Shown one piece after another: positions 16,034 through 22,806 of a DNA stretch of 60,410 nucleotides; position 1 is the stretch's first letter, and each line of letters opens with the position of its first letter. Both the position numbers and the translations under genes were made by a program. Origin of the DNA: Bacteroidota bacterium (lineage in GTDB: Bacteria; Bacteroidota; Bacteroidia; Chitinophagales; Chitinophagaceae); the NCBI GenBank assembly GCA_030706685.1, contig JAUZOA010000023.1, positions 1 through 60,410 on the forward strand, written 5' to 3'. The notes under the pieces are model-generated. The model was not told the DNA's origin and did not search any database. It worked only from the letters and a program-made list of their open reading frames with translations.

Positions 16034-16654
16034 ATGAAAATTTTAGTTTTCGATAATTACGATTCCTTTACCTATAACCTGGTTCACCTGGTGGAGAAGA
16101 TATTGCACCAGCAAGTAGAAGTGCACCGCAATGACCAGATTCCTTTGGAAAAGGTGAAACAATATGATAAAATCATTTTGTCGCCGGGCCCGGGGATACC
16201 TGAAGAAGCGGGTTTGCTGTTGCCATTGATAAAAGAATATGCTTCTTCAAAATCTATTCTTGGCGTTTGCCTGGGACACCAGGCTATTGGAGAAGCATTT
16301 GGAGGAAAGCTGGTGAATCTTTCGACCGTGTATCATGGGGTGGCGACGCCGGTGAGAATTGTGAGTAGTGAGCGGTCAGTAGTGAGTAAAATTCATTCCC
16401 CACTGACCACTCACCATTCACGGAGCAGGTTGTTTGACGGTCTGCCGGAAACGATAGAAGCCGGACGTTATCATAGCTGGATCGTTTCTGATGAAAATTT
16501 TCCTGATGAACTGGAAGTGACAGCGAGGGATGATAATAATTATGTCATGGGGCTGCAGCATAAAAAATATGATGTGCAGGGAGTACAGTTTCACCCGGAG
16601 AGTGTATTGACGCCGGTGGGAGAAAAGATATTGAGGAATTGGCTGAAAGTCTGA
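16034..16654 (+). CDS. trpG: Anthranilate synthase component II (glutamine amidotransferase)
   Basis: A 206-aa class I amidotransferase. ATG 16034 is one base after the trpE stop. The nucleophile is Cys79 in LGVCLGHQ and the dyad is H187/E189 in VQFHPES; SPGPGIP is present. Residues about 109-132 (VRIVSSERSVVSKIHSPLTT and following HHSRS) are an extra loop encoded by a hairpin repeat between HGVATP and LFDGLP, absent from ordinary TrpG. The last codon and stop (GTC TGA) are the first six bases of the GxxExxY cassette; without the cassette the protein would end NWLKR and overlap trpD by ATGA. Confidence 0.95.
   Translation: MKILVFDNYDSFTYNLVHLVEKILHQQVEVHRNDQIPLEKVKQYDKIILSPGPGIPEEAGLLLPLIKEYASSKSILGVCLGHQAIGEAFGGKLVNLSTVYHGVATPVRIVSSERSVVSKIHSPLTTHHSRSRLFDGLPETIEAGRYHSWIVSDENFPDELEVTARDDNNYVMGLQHKKYDVQGVQFHPESVLTPVGEKILRNWLKV
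16361..16420. repeat. Intragenic hairpin, family B, inside trpG
   Basis: Arms GTGAGCGGTCAGT (16368-16380) and ACTGACCACTCAC (16402-16414) pair at 12 of 13 positions. The repeat is translated in frame through trpG. Half-copies with the same words occur in waaA (32904-32938) and rfbD (40119-40156), each also read as LTT-x-HS-like peptide. Confidence 0.8.
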
Positions 16655-17142
16655 ACTGAGATAAATGAGAAAATGGGATAAATGAGAATTAAACCCGAAT
16701 CTTATGGGAGATTACAAATATGGTGAGATAACCGAAAAAATTATTGGCGCTTCTTTTAGAGTACATAGTGGTTTGCGTAACGGCTTCCAGGAAGTCATTT
16801 ATCAAAGGGCTTTGGAACTGGAATTTAAAGTAATGAGTCTTGACTATGCAAGGGAATTTGAAATGCCCATCTATTATATGGATCAGCAAATAGGCACAAG
16901 AAGAGTTGATTTTTTAGTAGATGGAAAAATAAGCGTTGAACTAAAGGCGGTAATAAAGTTGGAGGACGTTCATATTGCACAGGCGATGAATTACCTGGAA
17001 GCGTATAATCTGGAGATAGGATTATTGTTGAGCTTTGGAAGCAAGCGACTGGAATTTCATCGCCTGACCAATAAGAAATACAACCCGGTAATAATCCGTC
17101 ATCCTCAAAAATCCGATAAATCTCATTAATCTCAGTTTAGAC
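16649..17142 (+). mobile_element. GxxExxY cassette with terminal inverted repeats, inserted between trpG and trpD
   Basis: A 494-bp unit bounded by 22-bp inverted repeats that match at 20 of 22 positions (left end GTCTGAACTGAGAT, right end ATCTCAGTTTAGAC). It carries a single gene. The left repeat supplies the trpG stop and the right repeat overlaps the end of the cassette gene. Removing 16649-17142 exactly gives trpG ending in AGA TGA with the trpD ATG overlapping as ATGA, the same coupling seen at trpD-trpC. No transposase is present, so mobility would need help in trans. No clear target-site duplication is visible. Confidence 0.75.
16704..17129 (+). CDS. GxxExxY protein (PD-(D/E)xK nuclease-like)
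   Basis: A 141-aa protein of the GxxExxY family; the naming motif is G27-x-x-E30-x-x-Y33 in NGFQEVIYQ. RRVDFLVDGKISVELKA gives D69, E79 and K81, the spacing of the PD-(D/E)xK nuclease fold. The family is small, often multicopy and of unknown function. It has no role in tryptophan synthesis and sits between inverted repeats inside the trp operon. The C-terminal residues (KSDKSH) are encoded by the right inverted repeat region. Confidence 0.9.
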   Translation: MGDYKYGEITEKIIGASFRVHSGLRNGFQEVIYQRALELEFKVMSLDYAREFEMPIYYMDQQIGTRRVDFLVDGKISVELKAVIKLEDVHIAQAMNYLEAYNLEIGLLLSFGSKRLEFHRLTNKKYNPVIIRHPQKSDKSH

Positions 17143-19650: not shown

Positions 19651-20151
19651 ATGATTAATATGGTTCATGTCCGGGAAGCCGTTGAAAATGATCTGCCGCA
19701 GTTGTTGTCCATTTATAACGACATCATCCTGCACACGACAGCCGTGTATGATTATGAACCGCATACACTGGAAATGAGAAAACAATGGTGGGAGACGAAG
19801 AAACAGCAGGGTTTCCCGGTATATGTGGCAGAGGAAGGCGGGAAGATACTTGGTTTCAGTTCGATAGGGCCATTCAGGGCATGGGCCGCGTATAAATATT
19901 CGGTGGAGAATTCAGTTTATGTAGCGGCTGAACAGAGAGGAAAAGGAACCGGGAAATTATTGATACCGCCCTTGATTGATGCAGCAAAGAAACTGCAATT
20001 GCATACGATCATCGCGAGTATTGATGCAACGAATGAAGCCAGTTTAAGATTGCATAAAAGTTTTGGCTTTGAAGAAGTGGCGCATTTTAAACAGGTGGGA
20101 TGGAAGTTTGAGAGATGGCTGGATTTGAAATTTTTGCAGCTAATTGTCTGA
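19651..20151 (+). CDS. GNAT acetyltransferase, phosphinothricin/methionine sulfone type
   Basis: A 166-aa acetyltransferase with the MnaT/PAT layout: VREAVENDLPQLLSIYNDII at the start, a FRAWAAYKYSVENSVYV strand, the acetyl-CoA loop QRGKGTGKLL and NEASLRLHKSFGFEEVAHFKQVGWKFERWLDL. Such enzymes acetylate amino-acid analogues. It lies inside the trp operon, 23 bases after trpF. Its final codon and stop (GTC TGA) are the first six bases of a 95-bp inverted-repeat element; without it the frame would continue ISVE to a TAG. Confidence 0.85.
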   Translation: MINMVHVREAVENDLPQLLSIYNDIILHTTAVYDYEPHTLEMRKQWWETKKQQGFPVYVAEEGGKILGFSSIGPFRAWAAYKYSVENSVYVAAEQRGKGTGKLLIPPLIDAAKKLQLHTIIASIDATNEASLRLHKSFGFEEVAHFKQVGWKFERWLDLKFLQLIV

Positions 20152-20240
20152 ACCGGGATTTGGGTGGATGAAATGGATTATGAGGAAATAGGAGGGTAAT
20201 CCTATAAATCCCGGAAATCTTTCAAAATCATGGTTCAGAC
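20146..20240. mobile_element. 95-bp MITE-like element related to the GxxExxY cassette
   Basis: The ends GTCTGAACCGGGATTT and AAATCATGGTTCAGAC are inverted repeats (14 of 16). They share GTCTGAAC with the ends of the GxxExxY cassette at 16649-17142. Inside are two further perfect inverted pairs, CCGGGATTT (20153) / AAATCCCGG (20206) and ATAGGA (20088 offset, 20188-20193) / TCCTAT (20200-20205), so the RNA can fold as a nested hairpin. It has no coding capacity. It lies between the GNAT gene and trpB. Confidence 0.7.
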
Positions 20241-22018: not shown

Positions 22019-22806
22019 ATGAGCAGGATCAAAGAATTATTCAGCAGAAAGAAAGGCAGGATATTAAATGTTTACTGTACGGCCGGTTATCCGCAATTGG
22101 ACAGCACATTACCGGTATTGAAAGCTTTGCAGGCTAATGGTGCAGATATGATAGAGCTGGGTATGCCTTACAGCGATCCTTTAGCTGATGGCCCGGTAAT
22201 ACAGCATAGCAGCACCATTGCTATCGCCAATGGGATGACGATAAAAAAAATGTTTGAGCAGTTAAAAGATTTTCGTCAAAGTCCCCACCGGGGGATTCAG
22301 GGGACATTCCTGTCATATTAATGGGAAATATAAACCCGGTTCTTCAATATGGGTTTGAAAAATTCTGTGCGGATGCGGCGGCTACCGGGATAGATGGATT
22401 GATATTGCCGGATCTGCCGATGTATGAATTTGAAACTGAATATGGCGCTATTATTCAAAAATACGGGCTTGATTTTATTTTCCTGGTAACACCCGAAACT
22501 TCTGAAGAACGAATAAAAAAATTGGATGAATTAACCAGTGGATTCCTTTATGCCGTTTCCTCCTCTTCTACTACCGGGAAAGATAAAAACATGGAAGATG
22601 TAAAGTCCTATCTTCAGCGGCTTCAGAAATTAAAACTAAAAAGCCCTGTCCTGGTCGGCTTTGGGATAAAAGACAAGCCGACTTTTGATGCAGCCTGCAG
22701 TTATTCAAACGGGGTAATCATCGGGACCGCCTTTATTAAAGCATTGGAAAACAAAGAGCCGGTAGAAAAAATGGTTAAACAGTTTATAGAGGGCATTTTA
22801 CATTAA
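22019..22806 (+). pseudogene. trpA: Tryptophan synthase alpha chain, frameshifted at a palindromic repeat
   Basis: Two frames together make one TrpA. The first (22019-22321, 100 aa) has the catalytic Glu in MIELGMPYSDPLADGPV and Asp in PLADGP. The second (22321-22806, 161 aa) starts MGNINPVLQYGFEKF and has FLVTPETSEERI and VGFGIKDKP. Between them the frame must slip by -1: the second frame read upstream gives KSPPGDSGDIPVILMGN, so strand DIPVIL is intact but out of frame with the 5' part. The shift lies in a family A palindrome (22276-22306). The stop and restart overlap as TAATG. It may be a true mutation, a sequencing error in the GC-rich hairpin, or a tolerated split; the rest of the pathway is complete. 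Confidence 0.85.
22276..22306. repeat. Intragenic palindrome, family A, at the trpA frameshift
   Basis: CAAAGTCCCCACCGGGGG then ATTCAGGGGACATT: GTCCCC / GGGGAC arms around a CCACCGGGGG centre. In the downstream TrpA frame it reads KSPPGDSGD, matching the other family A copies, but it is one base out of register with the upstream half of trpA. Confidence 0.7.

Follow-up and report, generated by a model that had tools for sequence, protein, structure and literature searches.

Among described systems, the nearest to the locus considered here is RAYT/REPIN, in which a REP-associated tyrosine transposase occurs together with paired REP hairpins (PMC3116915, PMC3733652). As described there, that system resembles the unit described below in having a small enzyme gene between inverted repeats, many gene-less paired repeats scattered in intergenic DNA, and a repeat type that tracks the enzyme type. 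On the same descriptions the two differ in the enzyme, which is a PD-(D/E)xK nuclease in the GxxExxY unit and an HUH/Y1 transposase in RAYTs, and in the ends, built here of short, spaced words in inverted sets and in REPs of short palindromes. By analogy, RAYT/REPIN is the nearest working model, and it is the enzyme that places the GxxExxY unit outside it. MITEs and classical insertion sequences also have inverted ends and exist in gene-bearing and gene-less versions; unlike them, the GxxExxY unit has no DDE transposase and no clear target-site duplication, and next to insertion sequences it is small, with only ~0.5 kb and one protein of ~125–140 residues. Cas4, RecB-like and lambda-exonuclease nucleases have their fold class in common with the modelled GxxExxY protein, which unlike them is stand-alone, shorter, carries a glutamate in its GxxExxY motif, and is tied to flanking arms of repeated words. 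Homing endonucleases, including those of PD-(D/E)xK type, are likewise encoded by small free-standing nuclease genes that could promote their own spread. Unlike these, the GxxExxY gene is associated with neither intron nor intein, is framed by inverted arms and, at the loci seen here, occupies intergenic sites. Our search of the open-licence literature found GxxExxY proteins in passing mentions only and no description of a GxxExxY gene-repeat unit.

The GxxExxY unit of the trp region

The window, that is, the whole analysed stretch of 60,410 nucleotides, belongs to a genome of 226 contigs and 5.74 Mb (G000). A preliminary description had presented the GxxExxY gene between trpG and trpD as a cassette bounded by 22-bp inverted repeats, and these are present with 20/22 identical positions: the left repeat (16649–16670) reads GTCTGAACTGAGATAAATGAGA and the right repeat (17121–17142), as its reverse complement, GTCTAAACTGAGATTAATGAGA. 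The left repeat contains the trpG stop codon (GTC TGA), as had been reported, and the right repeat covers the last codons and the stop of the GxxExxY gene. The repeats are the outer parts of longer arms (Table 1).

Table 1. Features of the GxxExxY unit and of the related hairpin in the window
Feature	Position	Strand	Remarks
Left arm	16649–16690	+	GTCTGAAC end, then drifted GATT-class words; outer limit set by eye
GxxExxY gene (TIGR04256 / PF13366), PD-(D/E)xK nuclease-like, GFQE subfamily	16704–17129	+	Profile matches, alignment, structure model
Right arm	17098–17142	-	Minus-strand words aimed at the gene; overlaps the gene end; inner limit set by eye
Gene-less hairpin, ~95 bp	20146–20240	.	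GTCTGAACC ends as in the trp unit; GATT words in both arms

The unit had further been thought to have landed in a junction at which trpG and trpD were already coupled. Removing 16649–17142 in silico does create the ATGA overlap on which that idea was based. Such an overlap was found in 0/10 gene-less relatives, and an ancestral ATGA-coupled junction is not supported, with all ten of these genomes having a gap of 24–189 bp between the trpG stop and the trpD start. Empty sites do exist: the gene is absent from ten genomes with a readable junction, three of them congeners and seven further relatives. Among readable junctions it is present in G000, G003, G005 and G013 only and is thus not fixed at this position. 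The trpG–trpD junction of G009 holds an array of RAG-class words (see below). Trees place the trp copy of G013 apart from those of G000 and G003, but an AU test did not reject a single clade (p 0.095; rows L278, L317 and L011 left out of one of these analyses), so that the copies may stem from one insertion or from more than one.

The gene-less hairpin of Table 1 lies 3 kb from the GxxExxY gene, between an acetyltransferase-like gene (gnat) and trpB, and supplies the TGA stop of the former. At the same gnat–trpB position, G003 carries a Y1_Tnp-like gene and G006 a hairpin with GCG-type words. At both trpG–trpD and gnat–trpB the insert varies from genome to genome, as in a permissive spot and not as after a single disruption of a coupled junction. 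The Y1_Tnp-like (RAYT-like) gene of G003 (L202:3347–3913) has inverted repeats of its own with a score of 24.5 and is probably itself mobile; its Pfam match of 21.7 bits is slightly below the cut-off of 23.

Two further observations were made on the trp genes themselves. Inside trpG, positions 16361–16421 contain an in-frame run of GTGAGT/GGTCAG words and, after it, the inverted complement of these words, and trpG is shorter at this stretch in G003, G004, G008 and others. At 22019–22806, trpA is divided into two overlapping reading frames with a break near 22300, which is a frameshift or a sequencing error; the spacing of tblastn matches indicates one continuous trpA frame in G003 and G004.

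Inverted arms frame most GxxExxY genes

GxxExxY genes are multicopy, with up to 14 matches per genome, and G000 has nine full copies and one short match. One check proposed for the cassette was whether the same terminal repeats recur at the other loci. Letter for letter they do not, and GTCTGAAC ends as a property of all GxxExxY loci were ruled out, these ends being confined to one class of words (GATT). What recurs in most copies is a common design, in which inverted arms carry two to four short words, usually 8–10 bp apart and facing inward. In G000, for example, L012 has nearly identical arms of ~56 bp built on the word GCACACGGATGACACGGGTTGGACGGAT, and the words GGACACAAAGAAGACACAAAGG and ACGCGAATTAGCGCTAATGAACGCTAAT stand inverted at the ends of L010 and L011, respectively. 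Six of the nine G000 copies reach an inverted-repeat score of 14; the others are L007, L009 and L013, of which L007, despite its score, has six GATT words pointing inward and none outward. A fragment of a GxxExxY gene on another contig of this genome (L015, G000:C101), with ACACAGAT/AATCTGTG words on either side, is a decayed unit.

The cassette-like framing holds across G000 and its relatives. For 80 genes, drawn from 113 matches in 102 of 119 loci after exclusion of fragments, duplicates and short flanks, a gene's own two flanks scored at least 14 in 56 cases (24 were below), compared with 3.3% of mismatched flank pairs; the median was 17 for own flanks and 9.5 for flanks taken from different loci. 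Previously unseen loci from 16 genomes gave a similar picture (51/68 vs. 2.7% mismatched). GLLE genes predominate in a third set, which carries the labels of 14 phyla, was taken from the best 80 out of at least 585 loci and hence represents close relatives: 82 loci yielded 79 genes when four with short flanks, duplicates and loci without a full match were excluded, and 64 of the 79 reached 14. The mismatched background here is high (15.4%) because one word is common to several phyla. The same sample included two archaeal loci, one framed (L148) and one not (L147). Control genes from the window and from eight trp-region loci of relatives behaved differently under the same scoring, with only 2/113 reaching 14 and one reaching 17, the score of the window's GxxExxY gene; the control gene above 17 is the Y1_Tnp-like gene of G003. 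Units with strong arms measure 413–846 bp (median 528; 121 loci).

The word class follows the protein subfamily

The proposed link between the protein and its repeats is borne out, as both flank similarity and word class follow protein similarity. Without any use of word classes, protein similarity predicts flank similarity among pairs below 60% identity (Mantel r 0.29; 1000 permutations, sd 0.022, maximum 0.07). Six word classes, GATT, RAG (CRCNRAG), AAT, GAT, TAG and RCG, were defined after inspection of the 80-gene and 79-gene sets. They could be assigned to 166 of 230 genes, leaving 64 without a class, in a set with a genome count of 103 when unmapped contigs are counted singly. On a FastTree protein tree of the 166 typed genes, word class changes 18 times, compared with at least 41 changes in 500 free shuffles and at least 30 in 500 shuffles within genomes. 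Since no within-genome shuffle came as low as 18, a genome effect does not account for the link between word and protein.

Among GFQE proteins, the type found in the window, 15/15 typed cases have GATT words (five untyped); GLLE proteins have RAG words in 103/112 typed cases (26 untyped). In the unseen set, GLLE was again accompanied by RAG (19/20 typed), both GFQE genes were untyped, and GFLE genes were mixed. Words also tend to point toward the gene rather than away from it: RAG 694 vs. 211, GATT 227 vs. 99, AAT 51 vs. 11, GAT 31 vs. 11 and TAG 19 vs. 8. No inward bias was seen for RCG words in the 230-gene set (42 toward, 47 away) or for GATT words in the unseen set (38 toward, 45 away). 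Three words were counted in 116 of 236 RAG-class arms, mostly spaced 8–10 bp, and GATT arms mostly have two to four.

A compact PD-(D/E)xK nuclease-like protein

The window's protein exceeds the cut-offs of TIGR04256 (119.4 bits; cut-off 35) and PF13366, PDDEXK_3 (110.7 bits; cut-off 22). PDDEXK families were its only profile matches, and no HUH/Y1 transposase was among them. The residues D69, E79 and K81, which the preliminary description had assigned to a PD-(D/E)xK centre, are invariant in an alignment of 36 relatives, as are G27, E30, Y33, Y97 and F111; Q93 is nearly so. The conserved D...E-x-K...Q-x3-Y residues resemble the motifs of Cas4 and RecB nucleases.

A structure model of the protein (pLDDT 91.4, pTM 0.82) gave SSO0001, which we take to be a Cas4 protein, as its best Foldseek match (E 6e-5), followed by the Cas4 Pcal_0546, lambda exonuclease and MGME1. 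Four matches had E < 0.001, all of them chains of one entry, and the structural match to Cas4 and lambda exonuclease is partial (TM-scores ~0.4–0.5). The model thus predicts an intact core in a PD-(D/E)xK fold like that of Cas4 and lambda exonuclease; the fold class is clear, and any closer kinship is not.

Gene-less arrays and hairpins

Word arrays also occur without a gene. Searches returned 74 GATT and 248 RAG array matches, the arms of gene-bearing units included; the RAG pattern allowed one mismatch, and its reversed control pattern gave nine matches. We examined 30 GATT and 28 RAG arrays for partners. At least two opposed words were present within 150 bp on the inner side of 17/30 and 14/28 arrays, respectively, compared with 0/30 and 1/28 on the outer side. 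This word count is a more sensitive version of a strict-score test for a partner arm, in which 11 of 68 arrays (some representing the same hairpin twice) were positive and two control stretches gave 0 and 0.

RAG arrays were found in 21/42 genomes with a GxxExxY gene and in 1/17 without; GATT arrays were not associated with the gene (7/21 genomes with it, 2/8 without). Among genomes without a TIGR04256 match, G011 (14 GATT arrays) and G022 (33 RAG arrays) are rich in arrays. In G000 itself, a gene-less element on contig C49 (L402, 1400–2800) has arms 85–89% like those of L012; nested within it is another hairpin, whose words are of a different type. In G010, likeness among the middle parts of four gene-less hairpins is only suggestive, at 0.57–0.72, with 0.50–0.64 for the flanks and 0.54 on average (maximum 0.67) for shuffled middles. 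In G034, six RAG-word arrays stand in tandem at intervals of ~90 bp and alternate with arrays of a second word (L411, G034:C33:13800–14800), a run that looks like serial duplication of hairpins.

Presence, absence and possible modes of spread

The empty-site searches covered two of the nine G000 copies, L012 and L010, together with the trp site, and presence/absence between relatives was found at 3/3. At the corresponding sites, 6/6 congeners lack the L012 and L010 units. In place of L012, G005 has a GATT hairpin, G001 and G006 have other sequence, and G003 has a 2-kb stretch. A copy related to L012 lies elsewhere on the same contig in four congeners, in G001, G003 and G006 ~220–250 bp beyond the matched downstream flank, which fits either movement or separate gains. 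Of 79 protein pairs with at least 70% identity, 54 (nine of them with short flanks) lack flank homology beyond the unit (e.g., L098/L200, L125/L153, L153/L192), 24 have it, and the two members of the remaining pair belong to one locus.

We consider it probable that the gene and its two inverted arms make up a single-protein mobile element of ~0.5 kb, mobile now or over evolutionary time, whose nuclease would recognise the words of its own arms. As an association, a minimal mobile unit of protein and repeats is well supported; what the analysis shows comprises the framing, the link between word and subfamily, presence and absence among congeners, the gene-less hairpins, the fold class and the intact core. 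Of the cassette as first proposed, the framing, the protein–repeat link and the variation of the site hold; the coupled ancestral junction is not supported, and the repeats are not identical across loci. As a mechanism, we infer recognition, cutting and movement by the nuclease, which is plausible; no insertion event was observed in the genomes compared. Counting against the mobile reading are also the lack of a clear target-site duplication, the copies that keep their place among congeners, the array-rich genomes without the gene, GATT arrays that do not go with gene presence, the untyped and low-scoring genes, and the missing inward bias of RCG words and, in the unseen set, of GATT words. 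The protein would bind the words at the two ends of the unit, of which each arm has two to four, inverted and about one helical turn apart. Binding would bring the ends together, or the protein might act on the hairpin into which the arms would fold in single-stranded form; the Cas4-like active centre could then cut at the outer edges of the unit, and the released or copied unit would be joined into intergenic DNA by host repair. Arms without a gene may be non-autonomous hairpin derivatives, movable in trans.

It is also possible that the nuclease acts by homing, that is, by cutting gene-less hairpins that bear its word, with the gene being copied into the break through the shared arms and the hairpins spreading by other means. 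Hairpins that have the same arms but no gene are frequent and in some genomes outnumber the genes (49 array matches vs. 6 gene matches in G027), arrays occur in genomes without the gene, and target-site duplication was not clearly seen in 121 strong loci, where the longest direct match between the two ends averaged 3.99 vs. 3.70 (sd 0.09) in permuted loci and had no defined length. However, the L010 site is armless in five congeners and has only a solo right arm in G001, the L012 site of congeners contains other sequence, and homing would leave the spread of the hairpins themselves unexplained. We regard it as unlikely.

Several copies have remained in the same place in congeners (e.g., L006/L020 and L008/L073/L081), and dN/dS was 0.03–0.13 in the four of 11 pairs for which it could be computed, with dS mostly near saturation. 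Judged from these comparisons, several copies appear to be stable and under purifying selection and not merely parasitic. This would agree with a resident host function, such as defence or the processing of hairpins or cruciforms of dispersed repeats, that is kept by selection and for which movement is historical and rare, as would the catalytic residues being intact in 36/36 sequences. Nonetheless, the genes are multicopy, their sites vary among congeners, and purifying selection is expected of an active element too; we think such a function unlikely as the explanation of the unit. That the words are ordinary intergenic repeats without functional link to GxxExxY genes, which would merely lie in repeat-rich intergenic regions, accords with words that occur without the gene and with intergenic spots that collect several kinds of insert, but it is already disfavoured, and in our view very improbable, given the rarity of similar framing among control genes, the inward direction of RAG and GATT words, and a word-tree fit that no within-genome shuffle reached.

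Returning to the mobile-element reading, its broadest form, on which we are evenly divided, is that of an undescribed and very widespread class of minimal transposon with GxxExxY proteins as its enzymes, in which a single Cas4-like nuclease would read a subfamily-specific word repeated in each arm and would also spread gene-less hairpins. If so, many environmental genomes would carry its non-autonomous offspring in the form of CACAGAG/CGCAAAG-type intergenic repeats, and the source of this class of repeats in several phyla would be explained. A common family of proteins so far annotated without function would gain one, a changing DNA-recognition code would be preserved in the differing words, and the known mechanisms of movement of very small DNA elements would be extended by a new catalytic type. 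With its matched subfamilies and words, the family offers a natural series for studying how a tiny nuclease reads DNA.

With regard to vehicles, none of 50,697 phage records and 8 of 72,556 plasmid records matched the window's protein, and two subfamily alignments each matched one viral contig; transport by phages or plasmids was rejected on these counts. At the intergenic L012 site, G002 (L355:904–1470) and G004 (L358:714–1451) carry genes with an ORF6N domain (Pfam), and this spot is shared by single-gene inserts of another family.
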